Virus record (IMG/VR): IMGVR_UViG_3300045977_000211
Coordinates: 1 to 31,389 of that record
Length of the DNA stretch: 31,389 bases
Direction: 5' to 3' (one strand)
DNA from: a virus
Position numbers and translations under genes: made by a program. This document shows, one piece after another, positions 5,735 to 23,466 of the stretch. The first letter of the stretch is position 1, and each line of letters begins with the position of its first letter. The notes beneath the pieces were generated by a model that worked only from the letters and a program-made list of their open reading frames with translations, made no database searches and was not told the origin of the DNA.

Positions 5735-7138
5735 CTACTCCGCGCGGACGACGATCAGGGACTGGCCCGTCACGGAGTCGAGCCGGGCGTTGTAGCCCGG
5801 GTAGCGGCAGTGGTTCTGGTAACGCTTGCGGTACCAGCCCTCGAAGCTATCGCGGCCCGAGCTGCCCGTGCCGACGCGCACGAGAATCGAGCCGTCCTCC
5901 TGCACCCACTCACCGGGCGAGGCCTGATAGCGGACCCAGCCGCTGTTCTCCTCGTCAATGAGCATCATCACGTCGAGCGGGAAATCCCGAATCGGCGTGA
6001 CGGGCACTTCGCCGGCCGTGACGTCCATCTGCTTGAACGCCTTGGTCAGCACGTCGGGATTGCTCAGCGTGGCCTGGACGCTGTAGCGGCGGTCGGGCTG
6101 GGCCAGCTTGAGGTAAAGCCGCCGTGTCGAGTGATGCGCCAGGATGCGCGTGATGCGCGATCCGAGCTTCTGGTCGAGCACGTCCGACACCTGCTGGAGT
6201 AGATCCTCGGAGAGGCTGCCGGTGCCCGCCTTCACGTAGGACTGATACGCCCCGTAGATCGAGCGGTCCACGTTGAAGTAGTTGTTGCGGATGGTCCCGT
6301 CGTCGACGAGCGCCATCATGCCCCACGCGGCCTTCTCCCACGACGTGTCCACGACGTCCGTGACGGAGCTGTTCGCCGCCTGGACGATGTAGTCGTTGTC
6401 GGCCACGGTGCCGCCGGGCGCGGCGTCGAGCGTGATCGAGGCGCCCGAGCTCGCGCACGAGACGACCTTCCGGATACCGGAGCGCAGCACGCCGGTCGCC
6501 GGATTCACGAAGCCCACGAACATGCCGGGGCGAATAAAGCGGTTGCCGAAGTTCGACTGCGTGAGGCCGCCGGGGTTGTCGATGGCGATCGTGGCGGAGC
6601 CGGGGGCGCCGTTCACGTAGGCGAGCACGCCGCGCCCGTCAAGGGTGAGCGCCGCCTCCTCCATCCGCGCGATGTCCTTGATCAGCTTGTTCATCTCGTT
6701 GGTGCGCGCGGCCTTGAATGCGCCCTTCGAGCTGCGGCTGTCGTGGATCGCTTCCGACGTCAGGCGCACGCGCGCCATGAGCTTTCGCTGGCCGATGCGC
6801 ACCTGCACGTTGCCCTGGGCGCCGGCGTCCGCGAACGCGCCGTCCTCACCGACCCACATGGGGGAGGTGTTGCGGGTGACGTCCGCGGTGTAGACGACTT
6901 CCCGGCCGGCGAACTCGACGGTTTCGGGCTTGAGCAGATCGCTCAGCGGATTGCGGTTGTTGGTCTGGTCCGCGACGAAATCTTCGTAGTAGTCCTTGTA
7001 GATGCCGTCGATGGACTGGGTGTCGGCGCCGGCCATGCCGATGACGACGGGAACGGAGAGGGCCGCCGGGAGCAAGCCCAACGCCCAGAGCGTCAGGGTG
7101 ATGCCGGCGAGCCAGTAACGGAGACGGGTGCTGTTCAC
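5735..7138 (-). CDS. Major capsid protein (HK97-fold type)
   Basis: 467 aa. The portal-scaffold-capsid order and sequence support the call: an N-terminal arm with SIDGIYKDYYE and NNRNPLSDLL (residues 42-69), RKLMARVRLTSEAIHDSRSS, a long central body, and PLDVMMLIDEENSGWVRYQ plus YNARLDSVTGQSLIVVRAE at the end. It forms the icosahedral shell. The start is GTG 7138, because an AGGAGG ribosome site that overlaps the scaffold stop lies 10 nt upstream; ATG 7036 has no such site. With this start the protein opens with a hydrophobic stretch (residues 8-34, LAGITLTLWALGLLPAALS) resembling a signal or membrane segment, unusual for a capsid protein. Confidence 0.85.
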   Translation of the reverse strand: MNSTRLRYWLAGITLTLWALGLLPAALSVPVVIGMAGADTQSIDGIYKDYYEDFVADQTNNRNPLSDLLKPETVEFAGREVVYTADVTRNTSPMWVGEDGAFADAGAQGNVQVRIGQRKLMARVRLTSEAIHDSRSSKGAFKAARTNEMNKLIKDIARMEEAALTLDGRGVLAYVNGAPGSATIAIDNPGGLTQSNFGNRFIRPGMFVGFVNPATGVLRSGIRKVVSCASSGASITLDAAPGGTVADNDYIVQAANSSVTDVVDTSWEKAAWGMMALVDDGTIRNNYFNVDRSIYGAYQSYVKAGTGSLSEDLLQQVSDVLDQKLGSRITRILAHHSTRRLYLKLAQPDRRYSVQATLSNPDVLTKAFKQMDVTAGEVPVTPIRDFPLDVMMLIDEENSGWVRYQASPGEWVQEDGSILVRVGTGSSGRDSFEGWYRKRYQNHCRYPGYNARLDSVTGQSLIVVRAE

Positions 7139-8188: not shown

Positions 8189-10645
8189 TCACCGGGGCGC
8201 GCCTTGGGGGCTCGCCGCCGGCACGGCGCCGGCGTTCTGATTGCTGTTTGCCATCGCCATGCCAGCGCCCTGCGGCGCCATCGGCGCGGCCGCGAACATC
8301 GCCATCTCCATCTGTGCCCGGGCCCAGGCCTCCATGTGCGCCCGCCGGTGAAGTGTCCACAGCTCATCAAGTTCCGGGTAGCGCAGGGCCAGCTCCCGAT
8401 ACTCGTCTGACTGGCAGTAGATGTCGTGTTTGGCGATGTGCAGCTGGTGCTTATCCCACTCCTTGACCTTGAGCGGGTTGCCTGGGAACAGCAGCTCGAT
8501 CTGCTGCGCGGCCGGCGGGGCGACCATCTGCACCTGCGGGCCGGCCGGGGCGGCGCCGGCGTCGTCTGGAGCCGGCTCCGGAGCCGGCACGGGGACCGGC
8601 TGCGGCTGGACGGCGAGGCGCGCGGCGGGGTTGACGAGCGGCATCGGCTGGCCGGTCGTCGGGTCTGGCATTGGCTCTGGAAGGGTCGCGACCCAGCGCG
8701 CAAACTCGGACTGCTCGCGCAGCGCGTTCTGCGTCGAGGCCTCGATGGACGGGCTCAGCTCCACGATGCCGATCTTCCGCATGATCTCAAACTGCTGTTC
8801 GGGGTCCTGCGGGTTGAGCACGCCCAGCTTCTGCCCGTGTTCGATCGCGGCGCGCATGCCGAGGCTCGTCTTGGGCAGTTGGGAGCCGTCCTCGACGAGG
8901 ATCTCGACCGCGCCCATCAGGTCGGCCTTCTGGAACGTCTGGAAGGACCAGGATCGATTCGGGCGCATCGTCGCGCGCACGCGCGTCTCGGGCCCGAACT
9001 GACGTTCGATTTCGAGCGCCAGCTGATACCACTGGCGATGTCCCTCGCCGCGCGCCTGGAGCGCCGGGCCGTAGTAGGACTGCGAGCGTTCCACGAGGAG
9101 GTTGATCGCCGCGAAGGAGTCGACGCCCGAGGGCTTGATGCCCTGCAGCGCGTCAGTGGTGCCGGTGAGTTTCTCGACGTCAGCCACGAGCATCGCGCGG
9201 CGCTCAAAGAGCGACGAGGGGATGTTCTGCCCCGCGATGCGCTCGGGCTTCGCGTTGCCGCCGGCGACGGCGGGGTTGTATTTGACGACGAGCCCGGGCT
9301 CGCCCGTGAAGCTCTTGACCTCGGCGCCCTTGGGTTCGAGCCAGACAGGGTTGGCCATGCGCTGCTCGCAGAGCTGGGCCATCGAGTCGAGCTGGTTGAT
9401 CTGGTCCTGCTTCTGCATGACGACATCGACGGCGCCGCGCCCGTTCAGGCGGCCGCCCATATCCTCGTAAACGTAGTGCACGAACGGAAAGAGCGCCTCG
9501 CCCTTGGCTGTGCGGTACGGCAAGGGGCCCGGCAGACTCTCCTCCTCGCTCTGCAGGAGCACGCCCTCGCTTTCGCCGAGCATGCGGGCGACCAGGCCGT
9601 GCGGATACTGCTTACAGGGCCGATGCCACAGCTCGTACTCGGTCGCGCCTTCGCTCTGCCCGTCGTCCCCGGTGTAGGTGATGGGCGTGGAGGTGACGTC
9701 CGACTGCGAGGCAATCGCGCGGAGCAGCTGCAGCGAGCGTTCGGCGGGCATCTTGCCCCACCGCATCGCGCGCATCTGCGCCTCGGGATAGTGATCGACG
9801 CAATACGCCTTCGAGCGCCAGCGCATCCGGAGCACGAACGGGGAGTCCTCGAGCCGCGTGTAGTTCTGCGGGATCGCCCACTCGAACGGTGAGAGGCTAT
9901 CGGTGCAGCCGGCGCCGTGAAACTTCTCGTCGCCCACGGGGTAGCCGTACTCGTCCTGGGCCTCGTGGAAGTCGCCCCCACCGCACTGCTCGCACATCGG
10001 TGCCTCGGGGTCGAGCTCCTCGGCGCGATATTGCGACGTGCACCCCGCGCACTCCAGCCAGGGCGTCAGCACCGACTTCGCGTAGGGGTTCCACCAGACG
10101 TGTTCCATCGCGTTGCCCGTAACGATGAACCAAAAGTCGGACTCGCGCTGCACGCGCGTGCGCTTGTGTTCCTCCGCGATCGCCGGTTCGAGCCGGTCGG
10201 CCGTGGCGGCCGTGGCTACCGCTTCATCGGAGGTGTTCAGCGGCCGCACGATGGTCGAGATCTGCACCGCCTGAAACACGGATTTGATGATGTTGACGCT
10301 GTTAGCGATGACGTTGGTGACGGGGCGCGGAATCCACTTCGCCATGCGCTTGTCGAGCCACTGGCCGCGCTTCCGGTCGTAGTAGACCCACTGCCGCCCG
10401 AGCAGGTAGAGCACATTCCGCCACCAGACGCGCTCATAGACCCAGCGGTTCTCCAGCGCCTCCTTTTTCCGGTCCTCGACGAACTGCTTGATGGCGTCGA
10501 AGTTGTGGTAGGGGTCCGGCGGCGGCGCGGCCGCGTCGGAGCCGCCTCCAAAGAGCTGGCCGATGCGGGCCATGAGGCCGCTCGGGGGTTGCTGCCCGCC
10601 CACTTCGGGCGGATTCACGACGTTCCCGGGCGATGGTGGATACAT
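8189..10645 (-). CDS. Portal protein with zinc-ribbon insertion
   Basis: 818 aa, the size of large P22-type podovirus portals, which form the dodecameric DNA channel. The N-terminal part has YERVWWRNVLYLLGRQW and WIPRPVTNVIANSVNIIKSVFQ (residues 69-125). The core has GRGAVDVVMQKQDQINQLDSM and a helical stem region (VERSQSYYGPALQARGEG). The C-terminal 150 residues hold a Pro/Ala linker, a helical section (KHDIYCQSDEYRELALRYPELDEL) and a low-complexity tail. Unusual feature: residues 199-221 contain two CxxC pairs (C199/C202, C218/C221) like a zinc ribbon inserted before the wing region. ATG 10645 has GAGGA upstream. Confidence 0.85.
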   Translation of the reverse strand: MYPPSPGNVVNPPEVGGQQPPSGLMARIGQLFGGGSDAAAPPPDPYHNFDAIKQFVEDRKKEALENRWVYERVWWRNVLYLLGRQWVYYDRKRGQWLDKRMAKWIPRPVTNVIANSVNIIKSVFQAVQISTIVRPLNTSDEAVATAATADRLEPAIAEEHKRTRVQRESDFWFIVTGNAMEHVWWNPYAKSVLTPWLECAGCTSQYRAEELDPEAPMCEQCGGGDFHEAQDEYGYPVGDEKFHGAGCTDSLSPFEWAIPQNYTRLEDSPFVLRMRWRSKAYCVDHYPEAQMRAMRWGKMPAERSLQLLRAIASQSDVTSTPITYTGDDGQSEGATEYELWHRPCKQYPHGLVARMLGESEGVLLQSEEESLPGPLPYRTAKGEALFPFVHYVYEDMGGRLNGRGAVDVVMQKQDQINQLDSMAQLCEQRMANPVWLEPKGAEVKSFTGEPGLVVKYNPAVAGGNAKPERIAGQNIPSSLFERRAMLVADVEKLTGTTDALQGIKPSGVDSFAAINLLVERSQSYYGPALQARGEGHRQWYQLALEIERQFGPETRVRATMRPNRSWSFQTFQKADLMGAVEILVEDGSQLPKTSLGMRAAIEHGQKLGVLNPQDPEQQFEIMRKIGIVELSPSIEASTQNALREQSEFARWVATLPEPMPDPTTGQPMPLVNPAARLAVQPQPVPVPAPEPAPDDAGAAPAGPQVQMVAPPAAQQIELLFPGNPLKVKEWDKHQLHIAKHDIYCQSDEYRELALRYPELDELWTLHRRAHMEAWARAQMEMAMFAAAPMAPQGAGMAMANSNQNAGAVPAASPQGAPR
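8568..8579. repeat. Dispersed palindrome GGAGCCGGCTCC, copy 2
   Basis: Perfect 12-bp palindrome inside the portal gene. It falls in the part encoding the flexible Pro/Ala linker, where sequence constraint is low. A partial further copy (GGAGCCGGC) follows immediately. Confidence 0.45.
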
Positions 10646-11507: not shown

Positions 11508-11668
11508 GCGGCGCCCCCACCGGGCACGTCCGTGCCGACATCCTTGTGCGAGGGCGGCGGCGTCTGATTCACCAGCCGTCGCCCGCACATGAGGCAAATC
11601 TGGACGCGCACATCCTCCGACGAGGCGGTGGTGATTTTCCCGCCGCATTCGCAGCGTCGGTCAGGCAT
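11504..11668 (-). CDS. 54-aa zinc-ribbon micro-protein
   Basis: 54 aa: MPDRRCECGGKI, then VRVQICLMCGRRL and a polar tail. The CxC and CxxC pairs form a likely zinc ribbon. The ATG overlaps the end of the large terminase gene by eight bases and has GGGAGA upstream. Its stop overlaps the GTG of the next micro-gene. It may bind nucleic acid or a packaging protein; this is inferred only from the fold and position. Confidence 0.6.
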   Translation of the reverse strand: MPDRRCECGGKITTASSEDVRVQICLMCGRRLVNQTPPPSHKDVGTDVPGGGAA

Positions 11669-13169
11669 AGAAGTCTCCCATCGGATTGCCTCGCCACTCG
11701 CCGTCCTCCATGCCGGCGTGTAGAAGGGTCATTGGATCGTCGTCACCGAACTCGTTGCTGACCGACAGCGCGGTCCAGTCGAGTCCCGTGTCCCCTTCGC
11801 CCTGCTCGATGCGTCGCAGCCGCTCCCAAGCCCACCGGGCCTCCAGAGGAACCGAGCTGGCCGCCCGCTGCCCCGCGAGTGCCACGGCTTTCGGCAGCTC
11901 GGGGTACAACATGCAGCCGTAGCGGAGGCAATCGGGCAGATCGTCGTCGACTTTGATGACGCGCTCCCGCTTCGCCTCGCCGTCTTTCCCAAAATTCTCG
12001 TCCCAGCGGTAGTTCTGGAGCTGCTCGACCAACTTCGGGACGCGCCGCTTCACGAACCACAGCTGCTTCGCGCGGAGCCAGCTCGACACGCGCTGGATGC
12101 CGGCGACGACGTTGTTCTCGGCCGGAATCACATACAGGCCGTAGTTCGCCAGCTCCAGCGCCGCCTGTTTCTGGCTCCGGTCGTAGCCGCGCCGCTCGAC
12201 CACGAACGGATGCTCCATCCGTTTAATGCCTTCGGCGTGCTCGGCGTAGGTCTTGTTGCGTTCGAGATACTCGTTGACGCACACGAGGCCGTTTTCGGTG
12301 ATGACGACGAGGACGCCGGCGAACGGATGGTCGGCGCCCGGGTCGAGGCACGAAAACGCGGGCCGGGACGGGTCGATGCGGGGCCACTCGGGCAGGACGG
12401 CGCGCACCTGGTCGTCCGTCTCGAGGATTTGATTCGTCAGGAGCTGCCCGTAGACGGCGCCCGTGAACGTGACGAAATCCCCAAGGTATTCCTGCTGGAA
12501 AAACAGCGAATCGGCGCCGCCGTACTCGATCTCCGCTTCCCGGATCTCACTGGCGGTGATGAACGGGTTGTCGATCGTACGGTACTTGGTCGCCCAACGC
12601 CCGGGCACGCCTTGCAGCGCCGGCACATAGAAGCGCTTGTAGCACCAGTCCCAGCCGTTGGGCGACGTCGTGACCCAGGCGACCCCGCCATAGTCCGACA
12701 GCGTGGGCCGCAGGACCTTCCACGCCATCTCCTGGCACTTGCGGCCTTCGTCAATCCAGATCGAGTGCAGCCCGGGGCCGCGGCCTTTCTCGGGATCGTC
12801 CAGAGAGCGGAACGCGATGGTCGATTTGTTCGTGAGGGTGAGCTGATGATGCGCGGCGGACCAATCCGCGATCCAGCCGCGCGGCACGATGCTCAAGACG
12901 GCGGGCAGGACGAAATCGTGGAGGTCCCCGTAGGTCGGCGCGCACGCCCAATGTTTCGTGTTGCTGACGGTCGCTTCCTCGACGGTGGAGACGGCTCCAA
13001 TCCGCGTTTTGCCGCCCCGGCGGCCGCTGAACAGGCCGAACATGCGGAACATGCGCTGGCCGTTGCGATGGCGGGCCCGGCGGGCGCGAAGAAACGCCTG
13101 CTGGTAAGGGTGATTCAGTAGCTCAACGACCCCGGTGTCGTTGGCGACGATGTTCTTATTGCCCGCCAC
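11661..13169 (-). CDS. terL: Terminase large subunit
   Basis: 502 aa from GTG 13169. It pumps DNA into the prohead and cuts concatemers. Walker A is FSGRRGGKTRIG (residues about 47-58), Walker B HSIWIDEG (D140-E141), and the coupling motif is VAWVTTSPNG. The RNase H-like nuclease domain starts at FSCLDPGADHPFAG (D276) and ends with the acidic cluster VDDDLPDCLRYG (about 407-417). I chose GTG 13169, which overlaps the end of the small-subunit gene by 14 bases; a longer upstream frame is a Pro/Arg-rich shadow. No clear ribosome site precedes the GTG, so coupling to terS is likely. Confidence 0.9.
   Translation of the reverse strand: MAGNKNIVANDTGVVELLNHPYQQAFLRARRARHRNGQRMFRMFGLFSGRRGGKTRIGAVSTVEEATVSNTKHWACAPTYGDLHDFVLPAVLSIVPRGWIADWSAAHHQLTLTNKSTIAFRSLDDPEKGRGPGLHSIWIDEGRKCQEMAWKVLRPTLSDYGGVAWVTTSPNGWDWCYKRFYVPALQGVPGRWATKYRTIDNPFITASEIREAEIEYGGADSLFFQQEYLGDFVTFTGAVYGQLLTNQILETDDQVRAVLPEWPRIDPSRPAFSCLDPGADHPFAGVLVVITENGLVCVNEYLERNKTYAEHAEGIKRMEHPFVVERRGYDRSQKQAALELANYGLYVIPAENNVVAGIQRVSSWLRAKQLWFVKRRVPKLVEQLQNYRWDENFGKDGEAKRERVIKVDDDLPDCLRYGCMLYPELPKAVALAGQRAASSVPLEARWAWERLRRIEQGEGDTGLDWTALSVSNEFGDDDPMTLLHAGMEDGEWRGNPMGDFYA
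12986..12999. repeat. Dispersed imperfect palindrome TGGAGACGGCTCCA, copy 3
   Basis: 14-mer inside terL differing from the palindrome TGGAGCCGGCTCCA by one base. The identical 18-mer CGGTGGAGACGGCTCCAA occurs again at about 27027-27044 on the same strand in an unrelated gene. Confidence 0.4.
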
Positions 13170-13782
13170 CGGCCAGATCGTGTGCTTCGCCGTCGACGGA
13201 GGCGGCGGCGGTGGTGTCGAGGGGGGCGGGCGTGCCCACGGCGAGCGCTTTCTTGTCGGCCGACGAGATGATGAACCCGTCCACGATGGTGCCGGCGTCG
13301 ACGGCCCGCGCGCCATCGGACTTGATGTTGATGGTGAGCTGCATCGGGACGTTCGGGCCGCCGGCTTCCTTGGCGCTGTGGGTCCGGAGATGGCCCGCGC
13401 CGTGGAGGATCTTCCGCCCGAGCTCGGCGGCGAACTCGGTGTCGCCTTCGGTGAGGCCTTCCTCCACGCGATCGAGCGCGAGATGGGCCGTCGTAGCCAT
13501 CAGCCGCGCCGCAATCGTGTCGATCTCCGTCCGCGTCTTGGCGCGGTAGGCGGCGACCCAGCCGCGCACGGTGCTGACTTCCACGCGCATGACCTGCGCC
13601 ACGACTTTGTAGTCGCCCGTTTCCGCATAGAGGGCTGCGGCGAGAAGGCCGCGCGCCAGGAGCTTACGTTGACGGTCTTGAACCGTCGCCGTCTGTTCGC
13701 GCACTTCCTCATCGGTCAACGGCTGGCGCTCGGCGGGCGGCGGCGCCGGCTGCTCCGTCGTCCCGCGTGTGATTTTCCCCAT
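13156..13782 (-). CDS. terS: Terminase small subunit
   Basis: 208 aa, directly upstream of and overlapping terL. It recognises the packaging site and loads DNA on the large subunit. Residues about 56-80 (GDYKVVAQVMRVEVSTVRGW) form a helix-turn-helix. A helical oligomerisation region follows (RTEIDTIAARLMATTAHLAL, ELGRKILHGAGHL), then a flexible C-terminal tail that usually contacts TerL. The start codon lies inside a perfect CCCCATC/GATGGGG dyad and there is no obvious Shine-Dalgarno, so initiation may be controlled. Confidence 0.75.
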   Translation of the reverse strand: MGKITRGTTEQPAPPPAERQPLTDEEVREQTATVQDRQRKLLARGLLAAALYAETGDYKVVAQVMRVEVSTVRGWVAAYRAKTRTEIDTIAARLMATTAHLALDRVEEGLTEGDTEFAAELGRKILHGAGHLRTHSAKEAGGPNVPMQLTINIKSDGARAVDAGTIVDGFIISSADKKALAVGTPAPLDTTAAASVDGEAHDLAGGGQ

Positions 13783-14097: not shown

Positions 14098-14445
14098 TCA
14101 GCGGCCCAACGCCTTCCAGGCGGCGATCTCCCGCCGTTCCATATCGAGCGCCATCGCGCGCAGCTCCTCGGCGGCGACGTCGAGGAAGTTGGGTGAGGGC
14201 GGCTGGCGTGACCGTTCGAGCAGTTCGGCGGAGATCCGCACCCGGGCCATGAGGTAGCGCATCGGCACCACGACCTGCGTCCAGTCGAGCGTGGGACACG
14301 CGGGGGTAACGCCGACGAAGGCGGGCAGCGGCGGGGCGGCCAGGGCGACGCCGGCGGCCGCGAGGCCGAAGAAGAAGCGCCGGCGGGACGCGCGGACGGC
14401 GCAGGCTCGACAGCCAATGATGGGCACGTCATGCGCGCAGCTCAT
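14098..14445 (-). CDS. Small protein with twin-arginine-like signal and N-terminal Cys/His cluster
   Basis: 115 aa, ATG overlapping the previous stop (ATGA) with GGGAGG nine bases upstream. The N-terminus MSCAHDVPIIGCRAC has C3, H5, C12 and C15, a possible small metal site. It is followed by SRRRFFFGLAAAGVALAAPP (residues 20-39), a match to the Tat signal pattern S-R-R-x-F-hydrophobic, then PLPAF. The mature part has two helices (WTQVVVPMRYLMARVRISAELL and DVAAEELRAMALDMERREIAAW). The Cys/His cluster before the twin arginines is odd for a true export signal. Function unknown. It pairs with the next gene upstream, which carries a similar signal. Confidence 0.6.
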   Translation of the reverse strand: MSCAHDVPIIGCRACAVRASRRRFFFGLAAAGVALAAPPLPAFVGVTPACPTLDWTQVVVPMRYLMARVRISAELLERSRQPPSPNFLDVAAEELRAMALDMERREIAAWKALGR

Positions 14446-14810
14446 TCGCAGCCGCCTCCCAGAAACGCGGCGTTGACGCCAAGACGCCAAACGGCGCGCG
14501 GCGGCTGTTCCGGCGGCGGCTCGGCGGCCCAGTCCGCGGCGATGAACAACGAGAGGCTGTTTCGGTTGTTGCACATCTCCACAACCACGGGCTCGTAATA
14601 CTCCTTGAGGATCTGGTCAATCGAGGGGCCCGTCATCAGGCGGTCGACGTCGGCCGCCGTGAACGTCACGTCGGCAATCTCCTGCAGCGTCGGGGCGACG
14701 ATGAGGCCGGCGGCGGCCGTGGCGCCGAGAAAGAGAAAGCGGCGGCGCGACAGGCGCGGGGGCGGCTCCTCCTCCTCGCTCGGGAGCCAACGACGGAGGC
14801 GAATCAGCAT
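14442..14810 (-). CDS. Tat-like signal fused to a capsid-arm-like segment
   Basis: 122 aa. After an acidic/proline lead comes LSRRRFLFLGATAAAGLIVA (residues 20-39), a good twin-arginine-type signal. Residues 63-90 (SIDQILKEYYE, NNRNSLSLFI) align without gaps to residues 42-69 of this phage's major capsid protein, 15 of 28 identical by my count. The C-terminus (RAVWRLGVNAAFLGGGCE) is short, so the rest of a capsid protein is missing. It could be a partial capsid paralogue, a minor head protein or an assembly modulator. ATG 14810 lacks a visible ribosome site. The stop overlaps the next gene. Confidence 0.65.
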   Translation of the reverse strand: MLIRLRRWLPSEEEEPPPRLSRRRFLFLGATAAAGLIVAPTLQEIADVTFTAADVDRLMTGPSIDQILKEYYEPVVVEMCNNRNSLSLFIAADWAAEPPPEQPPRAVWRLGVNAAFLGGGCE

Positions 14811-14895: not shown

Positions 14896-15444
14896 TCAGC
14901 TCTCCGGGGTGGGGTCCGGATTCGAGTCGGCCAGGGCCTTGGCCGAATCCACGACGCCCTGGACGTTCGCCTGCAGCGTCTCGAGCTCGGTCGAGATGGC
15001 CGCGAGCTGCGCGGCGGTCGCGCCGCCCTCACCCGTGGGAATCGAGTCCTTGATGCGCTGGATGTCCGCCGCGATGTTCTCCAGCGACGGGGCTATCTCT
15101 CCGACCGACGTTTTCAGGGCCGCAATCTGGGCCTGAATCGCCTCAACGGTCATACGAACCTCCGCGAGAATCTCGCTCAGCGTAGCCACCCGGGACAGCA
15201 GGACCCGGAGCATGGCGGCTTCCTGGCCGCCGAACGAGGAGGGGGCGCCATGCTGGAACGCGGCCTCGAAGGCGCGGGCATTCTCCAGCGTATCGAGGAC
15301 GAAAAACGGCCGGTCGGCACCGAGAATGAACATCTCCCGCGCGTCTCGGGGGTCCCGCCGGCGCCCCGGGCCGAACGCGACGATACACTCCGGCCGGACG
15401 AGGATGGACCCCTGCTCGGTGGCGAGTTCGGCAAACCCCTGCAT
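14896..15444 (-). CDS. FlbD-like domain with coiled-coil tail
   Basis: 182 aa. ATG 15444 has GGAGG five bases upstream and is preferred to GTG 15465, which would place a parS-like site inside the gene. Residues 1-65 (QGSILVRPECIVAFGPG, MFILGADRPFFVLDTLENAR) follow the pattern of small phage proteins resembling the FlbD fold: a ligand-like strand, a P-x-x-I-V-A motif, then strand and helix. Residues about 76-135 and 145-170 form coiled coils. Such proteins recur among phage structural genes but their role is not established. A virion or assembly accessory function is inferred. Confidence 0.55.
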   Translation of the reverse strand: MQGFAELATEQGSILVRPECIVAFGPGRRRDPRDAREMFILGADRPFFVLDTLENARAFEAAFQHGAPSSFGGQEAAMLRVLLSRVATLSEILAEVRMTVEAIQAQIAALKTSVGEIAPSLENIAADIQRIKDSIPTGEGGATAAQLAAISTELETLQANVQGVVDSAKALADSNPDPTPES

Positions 15445-15457
15445 CTGGGCCTCCGGG

Positions 15458-15473
15458 TGTTCCACGTGAAACG
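15458..15473. promoter_or_regulatory. parS-like ParB-binding site
   Basis: TGTTCCACGTGAAACG matches the conserved bacterial parS consensus TGTTNCACGTGAAACA at every defined base except the last. It is centred on CACGTG and lies in the 39-bp gap between two minus-strand genes, not in coding sequence when ATG 15444 is used. A ParB-like protein is encoded at 22069-23466. It could load that protein or the host ParB. Confidence 0.6.
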
Positions 15474-15483
15474 GTGGAGTCGG

Positions 15484-15711
15484 CTACACCACCCGCCAGT
15501 CGGTCGCCAGGAGGTCGGTCTGGGACGCGAGCCACGGCACGCGGTCGCCCTGCACCGTCGTGATGTAGATATACGGCAGGGTCATCTTCGAGTGGGTGTC
15601 GGGGACTTGCAGGGTGAGCCGCTGATTGGGGCCGTTCCAGCCGGCCCGCTGCACGGACTGTCCGCCCCGGAGGGCTGTCAACGCTTCGCCGAAATCCATC
15701 GCCGTCTCCAT
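15484..15711 (-). CDS. Tad2-like (DUF2829) Thoeris anti-defence protein
   Basis: 75 aa. MDFGEALTALRGGQ (residues 5-18), RAGWNG (22-27), an internal strand (MTLPYIYITT) and the ending VPWLASQTDLLATDW (58-72) fit the DUF2829 family. Members of that family include Tad2, which binds and sequesters the cyclic ADP-ribose-type signal made by Thoeris TIR proteins. The length is typical. GAGGAG precedes the first ATG (15711). A second in-frame ATG lies at 15699 after a tandem duplication of GAGACGGCGATG, so two starts are possible. It is the first gene of the leftward block. Not all DUF2829 proteins have been shown to be anti-defence. Confidence 0.75.
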   Translation of the reverse strand: METAMDFGEALTALRGGQSVQRAGWNGPNQRLTLQVPDTHSKMTLPYIYITTVQGDRVPWLASQTDLLATDWRVV

Positions 15712-15896
15712 CGCCGTCTCCTCTGCTCCGAAAAAGGGCGCTCCCGAACGTGCCGGTTGGGTTATGAGCCGCCAGCGGAGCCGCGCCCGGGACCCGCCCG
15801 TCGAGGCGTCCCGCCCGGGAGCCCCCGGGTGAAGGCGCGACGATAGCGCAGCGCCTCCCAGGCCGTCAACGGGAAACCCGACCGTGCGCCACTCCG

Positions 15897-22068: not shown

Positions 22069-23466
22069 ATGCAGCTACAGCAGATCGACCTGACGGAGTT
22101 GAAGCCGTCGCCGTTCAATCCGCGCACGTTCATGGACGAGGCGAAGTTCCAAGACCTCGTGCGCAGCGTCGAGCAGGGGCTCATCGAGCCCATCATCGCG
22201 CGCAAGGTGGACGGGCACTTCGAGATCGTCGCCGGGGAGCGCCGCTATCGCGCGGCGAAGAAGGCGAAGCTCGGGAAGGTGCCGGTCATCGTCAAGGACC
22301 TCTCCGACGCGGCCGCGATGGAGATGCAGCTGATCGAGAACATCCAGCGCGAGGACATGAACCCGGTGGACGAGGCGGCGGGGTTCGAGCGCCTGATGAA
22401 GCTCGACCCCAAGACCTACACCGCCGAAACCCTGGCCACGAAGATCGGTTTGTCGGCGGCCAGCGTCTACCTCAAGCTCCAAGTGAACAAGCTCACCGAC
22501 GCCGGGAAGGCGCTGCTGCGCGAAGGGAAGATCGACACCGCGCACGGCGCCGCCATCGGCCGGCTCAGCGAGGCCGACCAGAGCGCCGCGCTCAAGTGGA
22601 TGGCCCAGGAGGCGAAGTATCACGACGGCACGTTCCCGAACGTGAAGCGCCTCCGCGAGTGGATCAAGCAGAACGTGCGGCTCGACCTGTTCGGCCCCGA
22701 GCTGGCGACGACACAGCCCAAGGTCCATGCGAAGCTCGCGAAGCTCCAGGCCGAGGGCATCACCCCCGTGCAGATCTCCGGCCACTGGCAGAGCAAGGAC
22801 GGCGTGCTCGGGACCGACAGCTACAAGGAGGCCGGGAAGCAGAAGTGCAAGAGCACCGAGGTTGCGTTCTTGGTCTACGGCGATGAGGTCGAGGTCGTGG
22901 AGATCTGCCGGGACAAGAAGGCGTGCAAGACCCACTACAAGTGGGAAGTGGAGCAGGCGACGGCGCGGCGGCGGCAGCTCGGGCGCGACAAGGAGACGCC
23001 CGAGAAGAAGAAGCGGCGGCTGGCGGCTGAGGCCAAGGTGAAGGCGGCCAACGCGGTCTACAAGGACGTCGTGCAGCGTGCGCTGCGCGCGGCCATCAAG
23101 CGAACGAAGAAGGTCACGCCGGCGATGCTCACGCGCCTCGTGCTGAATACGCTCGACCGCTACAACTTCGATGAGGACACCGATCAGCTGCTGGCGGACC
23201 TGAAGATTCCGCAGAAGGCGCTCGGCCTCAGCTACGACATGCTGCGCAAGGGCGACCTCCCGCGGCTCTCCGAGCAGCAGCTCGCCGCCCTGGTCATCCT
23301 GGCCGAGGGCGATGCGATGGAGTTCCCGAACAACGCGCCCGACCTCGACGCGTTCTGCAAGCGGCACAAGCTCGATCTGAAGAAGCTGAAAGCCGACGCC
23401 CTGGCGGCCGCCGCGAAGGCGAAGGAGTCCGAACCGCAGAAGCTGACCGCGCCCAAGAAGAAGTAG
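22069..23466 (+). CDS. ParB-like DNA-binding protein
   Basis: 465 aa with GGAGG eight bases before ATG 22069. Residues 5-110 are a ParB/Srx N-terminal domain: QIDLTELKPSPFNPR, FEIVAGERRYRAAKK (CTP-binding GERR box, 56-59) and LIENIQREDMNPVDEA (90-102). A helix-turn-helix follows (TAETLATKIGLSAASVYLKL, 118-137). The C-terminal half is unlike standard ParB: a middle with five cysteines (CKST, EICRDKKACKTHY and others), basic helices, and a Lys-rich tail. ParB proteins load on parS and spread as CTP-fuelled clamps. No ParA is seen in this window. Possible roles are plasmid-like segregation or gene regulation. Confidence 0.75.
   Translation: MQLQQIDLTELKPSPFNPRTFMDEAKFQDLVRSVEQGLIEPIIARKVDGHFEIVAGERRYRAAKKAKLGKVPVIVKDLSDAAAMEMQLIENIQREDMNPVDEAAGFERLMKLDPKTYTAETLATKIGLSAASVYLKLQVNKLTDAGKALLREGKIDTAHGAAIGRLSEADQSAALKWMAQEAKYHDGTFPNVKRLREWIKQNVRLDLFGPELATTQPKVHAKLAKLQAEGITPVQISGHWQSKDGVLGTDSYKEAGKQKCKSTEVAFLVYGDEVEVVEICRDKKACKTHYKWEVEQATARRRQLGRDKETPEKKKRRLAAEAKVKAANAVYKDVVQRALRAAIKRTKKVTPAMLTRLVLNTLDRYNFDEDTDQLLADLKIPQKALGLSYDMLRKGDLPRLSEQQLAALVILAEGDAMEFPNNAPDLDAFCKRHKLDLKKLKADALAAAAKAKESEPQKLTAPKKK

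Follow-up and report, generated by a model that had tools for sequence, protein, structure and literature searches.

The question raised by the DNA analysed here is who, if anyone, reads a 16-mer resembling parS, the bacterial centromere site, on a phage genome. The window, by which the whole analysed stretch is meant, is a 31,389-base IMG/VR virus record without a completeness estimate, and it looks like a fragment. Its gene content is that of a tailed phage: the minus strand encodes the P22-like portal, the major head protein and the terminase, whereas ParB, RecT, a YqaJ/RecE-like exonuclease and a protein with similarity to DnaD are encoded on the plus strand. No tRNA was found in the window. 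The features needed below are as follows.

5735-7138, minus strand: major head protein (phrog_14242)
8189-10645, minus strand: P22-like portal protein (profile match)
11661-13316, minus strand: terminase large subunit, start uncertain (similarity to the viral contig L002 begins near residue 50)
14896-15444, minus strand: 182-aa gene, an open reading frame with its start just downstream of the site
15445-15483: 39-bp gap with the site, between the stop of the tad2-like gene and the next start
15450-15454, minus strand: GGAGG ribosome site in the gap, read from the sequence
15458-15473, plus strand: parS-like site TGTTCCACGTGAAACG; the minus strand reads CGTTTCACGTGGAACA
15484-15711, minus strand: tad2-like gene, 75 aa, with a Thoeris anti-defence 2-like domain (PF11195, 3.2e-23)
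22069-23466, plus strand: orphan ParB-like protein, 465 aa, with ParB_N at residues 2-93 and HTH_ParB at residues 95-180

The first-pass annotation had reported a 16-mer at 15458-15473 that agrees with 14 of the 15 defined bases of the parS consensus, and it was found exactly as quoted. The CACGTG core is intact, and the 14-bp core GTTCCACGTGAAAC has one mismatch compared with a perfect palindrome. When the window was searched with TGTTNCACGTGAAACA and up to three mismatches were allowed, the only match was at these positions, with one mismatch on the plus strand and two on the minus strand. The expected number of matches with at most one mismatch on both strands was 5.9e-4, 7.4e-4 and 2.0e-3 under Markov models of orders 1, 2 and 3 trained on the window. 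The site is thus rare, as had been claimed, and the chance rate is somewhat lower than the earlier figure of about 0.003, at 0.0006-0.002. Since parS is one of many recognisable motifs, such window-level odds alone are moderate evidence only.

In the IMG/VR contigs, with the window itself (L001) excluded from the counts, the exact 16-mer is present in at least 119 stretches. The direct control, which has the same bases and the same CACGTG core with permuted arms, is present in 3 stretches, and the four control variants are present in 3, 21, 4 and 5 stretches (complete scans). The exact 16-mer therefore outnumbers the direct control by a factor of at least about 40 and the most frequent control variant by a factor of at least about 6, and by these ratios at most about 3 to 18 percent of its occurrences would be due to chance. 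Markov models of the viral loci give about equal expectations for parS and both controls, 1.0-1.7 per Gb. The four-variant parS pattern was matched in at least 120 viral stretches, compared with 33 and 12 for two four-variant controls (complete scans); among the listed matches the variants are present in 66, 30, 20 and 6 loci, the full palindrome first. Of the 119 exact-variant loci listed, only six are also among the 120 loci listed for the four-variant parS pattern. If both parS scans traverse the collection in identical order, which this estimate assumes, the four-variant scan covered about 1/20 of the ground of the other, and about 2,400 parS stretches or more would be expected.

The 122 exact viral sites form about 101 flank clusters, so the independent cases are fewer than 119. 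Among the matches listed, locus GC ranges from 30 to 72% and is 60% or more in 32 of 119 loci. The placement of the sites was compared with that of random positions in the same loci. Exact sites are outside ORFs of at least 100 aa in 40 of 122 cases (17.8 expected, p 3e-7), other parS variants in 77 of 154 (29.2 expected, p 4e-18) and control sites in 7 of 33 (4.2 expected, p 0.12). Two of the viral contigs (L033:2657-3444 and L087:10535-11462) have five copies of TGTTTCACGTGAAACA within about 1 kb; these arrays are centromere-like, and no close ParB homologue is encoded in either stretch.

Relatives of the window phage are few. Positions 8000-31000 gave no megablast match among 50,697 phage records, searches by ParB and by the 182-aa protein found no relatives, and neither did a terminase alignment used against bacterial genomes; a three-sequence terminase alignment used against viral contigs returned L002 and L003 again and nothing else. 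L003 starts inside the terminase and does not cover the gap region, and L002, whose terminase is 77% identical, is the nearest informative relative. The pair of tad2 and 182-aa genes is absent from L002, which has a different gene set there and no site with at most one mismatch. Conservation in related phages, proposed earlier as the check that could refute a role for the site, thus came out negative in the sole informative relative. A two-mismatch parS-like near-palindrome, TGTTCCACATGGAACA (L002:6247-6262), is inside a small ORF 1.4 kb upstream of the L002 terminase. The L002 record, which may not cover the corresponding region, gave no match to the ParB of the window.

These data bear first on chance, that is, on a 16-mer that resembles parS and has no function. 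There is one site with one mismatch, it is not conserved in L002, and a rate of about 0.002 per window is not negligible across many windows and recognisable motifs. However, chance does not account well for the excess of the exact 16-mer in viral contigs over both the direct control and the commonest control variant, and we regard it as rather unlikely.

Another source of the excess could be chromosomal DNA. The identical 16-mer is present in at least 120 loci of bacterial genome contigs. When loci were searched by phmmer with the window ParB as the query, a ParB ORF was found nearby in 39 of 120 bacterial loci and in 0 of 119 viral loci among the matches listed (Fisher test, 9e-14), with median locus lengths of 8.0 kb and 8.7 kb, respectively; in 81 of the 120 listed bacterial loci there was no ParB nearby. 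By this measure the viral sites do not resemble stray pieces of chromosomal par regions. In 50 whole viral records, a profile search found ParB_N in 5 (3 above the cut-off) and Terminase_6N in 11. None of the five ParB_N records was reached by phmmer with the window ParB, and because this query misses distant ParB-fold proteins, the count of 0 in 119 applies to close homologues alone. In the remaining sets of loci, phmmer detected two ParB-like ORFs, one of them in the parS locus L119 and the other in the control locus L137. Contamination with host DNA as the source of the viral excess is weakened, though not removed, by the comparison of 0 of 119 with 39 of 120 and by the cultured phages described below, and part of the viral excess may come from host or plasmid DNA.

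The window phage encodes a possible reader of its own. The ParB-like protein that was first noticed for its GERRYRA and ENIQRED motifs is real: GERRYRA and ENIQRE are intact, ParB_N (3.5e-27) and HTH_ParB (1.5e-10) were matched, and TIGR00180 (parB_part) scored 126.4 bits against a curated cut-off of 58.45. The best phage family is phrog_4715. Judged by these matches, it is a true ParB over its first 180 residues, and over its long C-terminal half (window 22700-23466, plus strand) neither Pfam nor NCBIfam gave a separate match. The only match of PADLOC in this protein was a methyltransferase model, through the ParB_N part. An AlphaFold2 model made with no alignment had a mean pLDDT of 42 and was set aside. 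ParA, sought as AAA_31, had no match in the record, while the same search had matches in all 14 control genomes. The earlier statement that there is no ParA thus stands for the record; since the record looks like a fragment, it does not follow that the phage is without ParA.

Eight residues of Caulobacter ParB were reported to contact parS (PMC7383237). The window ParB was aligned with 39 ParB ORFs from bacterial loci carrying the identical 16-mer, of which 37 cover the HTH and were used, the two without an HTH region in the alignment being left out. The contact positions were numbered by alignment to the helix GKSRSHVAN, which we take to be the Caulobacter sequence and from which the Caulobacter residue numbers were assigned. 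R173, N178, G201 and R204 are kept in 37, 37, 36 and 36 of the 37 bacterial proteins, and the window ParB has A, L, A and A at these positions. It keeps 2 of the 8 contact positions (G170 and S172); Q162 is replaced by A and K171 by L. With these contact residues lost, the window ParB is therefore unlikely to read parS, and recognition of the site by the ParB of the same phage appears unlikely. The ParA-binding motif (L/F/I)G(K/R)G(L/F/I), as defined in PMC12704722, had no match in the 465 aa of the window ParB and is present in 39 of 39 bacterial ParB ORFs. Similar proteins are the orphan ParB-CTPases of phages and prophages (PMC12704722), with which it shares a ParB_N fold, no ParA found in the record and no ParA-binding motif; the window ParB differs from them in keeping a canonical HTH domain, with altered contact residues. 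No convincing site for the window ParB was found among the repeats around parB.

The phage's own ParB-like CTPase might nevertheless read the site, either in partition or to silence the genes on its flanks, as its ParB_N and HTH_ParB domains and both intact motifs would suggest. However, the site is alone and 6.6 kb from parB, and two defining features of a phage-own ParABS acting on it, the parS-reading HTH residues and the ParA-binding motif, are missing from the protein. Such a use, which the first-pass annotation had raised as one option, is disfavoured by an HTH without the parS-reading residues, and we consider it improbable.

The position of the site raises a different possibility. It is located 14-29 bases upstream of ATG 15444, the start of the 182-aa gene, and upstream of the GGAGG ribosome site; it lies ten bases past the stop of the tad2-like gene. 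GGAGG is five bases upstream of ATG 15444 on the minus strand, and an alternative GTG start at 15465, which lacks such a ribosome site, would give a longer gene that overlaps the parS-like site. The 39-bp intergenic gap described at first reading holds if the 182-aa gene starts at the GGAGG-supported ATG 15444. The 182-aa protein has weak matches only, to PF04513 below the cut-off and to phrog_26164 (4.5e-4), a family without assigned function, and it had no match in NCBIfam. The RNA fold of 15430-15530 was not stronger than that of shuffles (z 1.44). The palindrome could bind a transcription factor, from the phage or from the host, that has nothing to do with ParB, and so serve as an operator for the 182-aa gene just downstream. 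However, a search for sigma-70-type patterns found no promoter-like pair at the gap, and the spectrum of variants in viruses, in which the full TGTTTCACGTGAAACA palindrome is commonest, fits parS. An operator is thus hardly probable.

Several other features of this neighbourhood were observed. The Tad2-like protein of 75 aa is stand-alone, is encoded directly upstream of the parS-like site, and had no match in PADLOC, a defence-system library, or in NCBIfam. An exact 12-bp tandem duplication of TCCATCGCCGTC (window 15695-15718) lies across the start region of the tad2-like gene and gives it two in-frame ATG codons. Two adjacent small ORFs on the minus strand (window 14098-14445 and 14442-14810) each encode an SRRRF stretch followed by a hydrophobic run, which we take to resemble a Tat-type signal, and L002 has an ORF similar to them.

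Two groups of cultured phages were compared as well. The viral locus L200 is identical to Arthrobacter phage Temper16 (Korravirus). The exact 16-mer of this locus falls within the DNA polymerase gene, and only 3 of the first 9 genomes keep it; being coding and kept in so few, it could be incidental. For comparison, 17 genomes were taken from the 105 Korravirus-like records matched. A site that was not a search target, the perfect parS core GTTTCACGTGAAAC, stands just upstream of a purA-like gene in all 17 genomes. In 14 of them its outer base pair is C/G and in the other 3 it is T/A; both sides differ together, and the palindrome is preserved. Of the 3,852 alignment columns that all 17 genomes cover, six runs of at least 14 columns are invariant; the site is one of these and, by the annotated gene positions, the sole one of the six between genes. 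In some genomes an HNH gene is inserted before the purA-like gene, and the site still adjoins the latter. Whole Korravirus genomes have 1-3 GTTYCACGTGRAAC sites each, and the reversed pattern has none (n=17). ParB_N was found in 0 of the 17 genomes by a search that was positive in 10 of 14 control genomes. A second parS core was observed near 23.6-25.2 kb in 16 of the 17 genomes. Examples of both positions are given here.

KU160653.2, 35912-35925 and 25180-25193: Korravirus core examples (genome set L401-L417)

The second cultured group is phi29-like. The locus L043, a match of the four-variant parS pattern, is identical to the phi29-like Bacillus phage Goe1. Four genomes were sampled (L418-L421): the three matched records B103, Chedec 11 and Goe23, and phi29 itself, which was included because of the report on Spo0J. 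Exact parS consensus sites number 4 in phi29, 2 in B103, 3 in Chedec 11 and 4 in Goe23. All four genomes have a site at the end of the connector/portal gene, and three of them have another directly 3' of the packaging ATPase gene. To our knowledge, phi29 is the known case of a phage reported to use host ParB. It has been reported that Spo0J brings about entrapment of the phi29 chromosome in the spore (PMC9437464, citing Meijer et al. 2005).

Taken together, the 16-mer of the window probably works as a parS on the phage genome, at which the chromosomal ParB of the host would nucleate. The bases of this reading are the site, its enrichment in viruses, its separation from close ParB homologues, the conserved parS cores in two groups of cultured phages and, in the window ParB, the missing contact residues. 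Binding by host ParB and every downstream effect are what we infer from them. Recruitment of host ParB or of the segregation machinery, one of the uses suggested at first reading, gains indirect support from the over-representation in viruses, the bias to positions outside ORFs and the 0 of 119 loci with close ParB homologues; the parS cores in cultured phages without ParB_N and the four perfect sites of phi29 support it further, also indirectly. Against it stand the single site with one mismatch, the lack of such a site in L002 and the fact that the phage itself encodes a ParB.

The reading is modelled on the reported use of Spo0J by phi29 in Bacillus subtilis. Through its HTH, host ParB would recognise the palindrome; it would then close into a CTP clamp and slide away onto the adjoining phage DNA. 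The phage genome would then be handled like the origin region of the host, tethered by ParA or SMC or retained close to the nucleoid or the pole, and its DNA might gain positioning, partition, passage through division or dormancy, or regulation of neighbouring genes. The same site and the same host ParB would also serve a decoy that titrates ParB and upsets host segregation during infection, and phi29-like phages have 2-4 perfect sites, but a single imperfect site would titrate ParB only weakly unless the phage copy number is high, and this use is highly improbable.

Known systems resemble the proposed host-read site in part. The chromosomal parS of ParABS is the same 16-bp palindrome, and its bacterial loci include the identical 16-mer (at least 120 loci); the site of the window differs in being on a phage and not beside parAB. 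The phi29 genome likewise carries host-type parS for the Spo0J (ParB) of Bacillus subtilis, whereas the window has one site with one mismatch and a ParB-like gene of its own. Extrachromosomal mycobacterial prophages have partition functions, with their own ParABS and an unrelated parS. They are cases of phage maintenance outside the chromosome (PMC7157519).

A wider reading can be put forward tentatively. Host-type parS may be a general, selected trait of tailed phages, with hundreds to thousands of unrelated phages using host ParB-CTP (and SMC) without a parS-reading ParB of their own; to this the window phage would add an orphan ParB-like CTPase with another DNA specificity, which on phage DNA might modify host ParB or compete with it. 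Among the papers listed by searches of the open-access journal literature, neither a survey of parS in phages nor the pattern of cores without ParB was found. If viruses do carry parS sites widely and under selection, the use of the host centromere would be a common phage trait. It would be testable in cultured phages, such as Korravirus on Arthrobacter and the phi29-like phages on B. subtilis, it would allow phages of ParABS-using hosts to be recognised by a sequence signature, and it would account for conserved palindromes in phage genomes without ParB.
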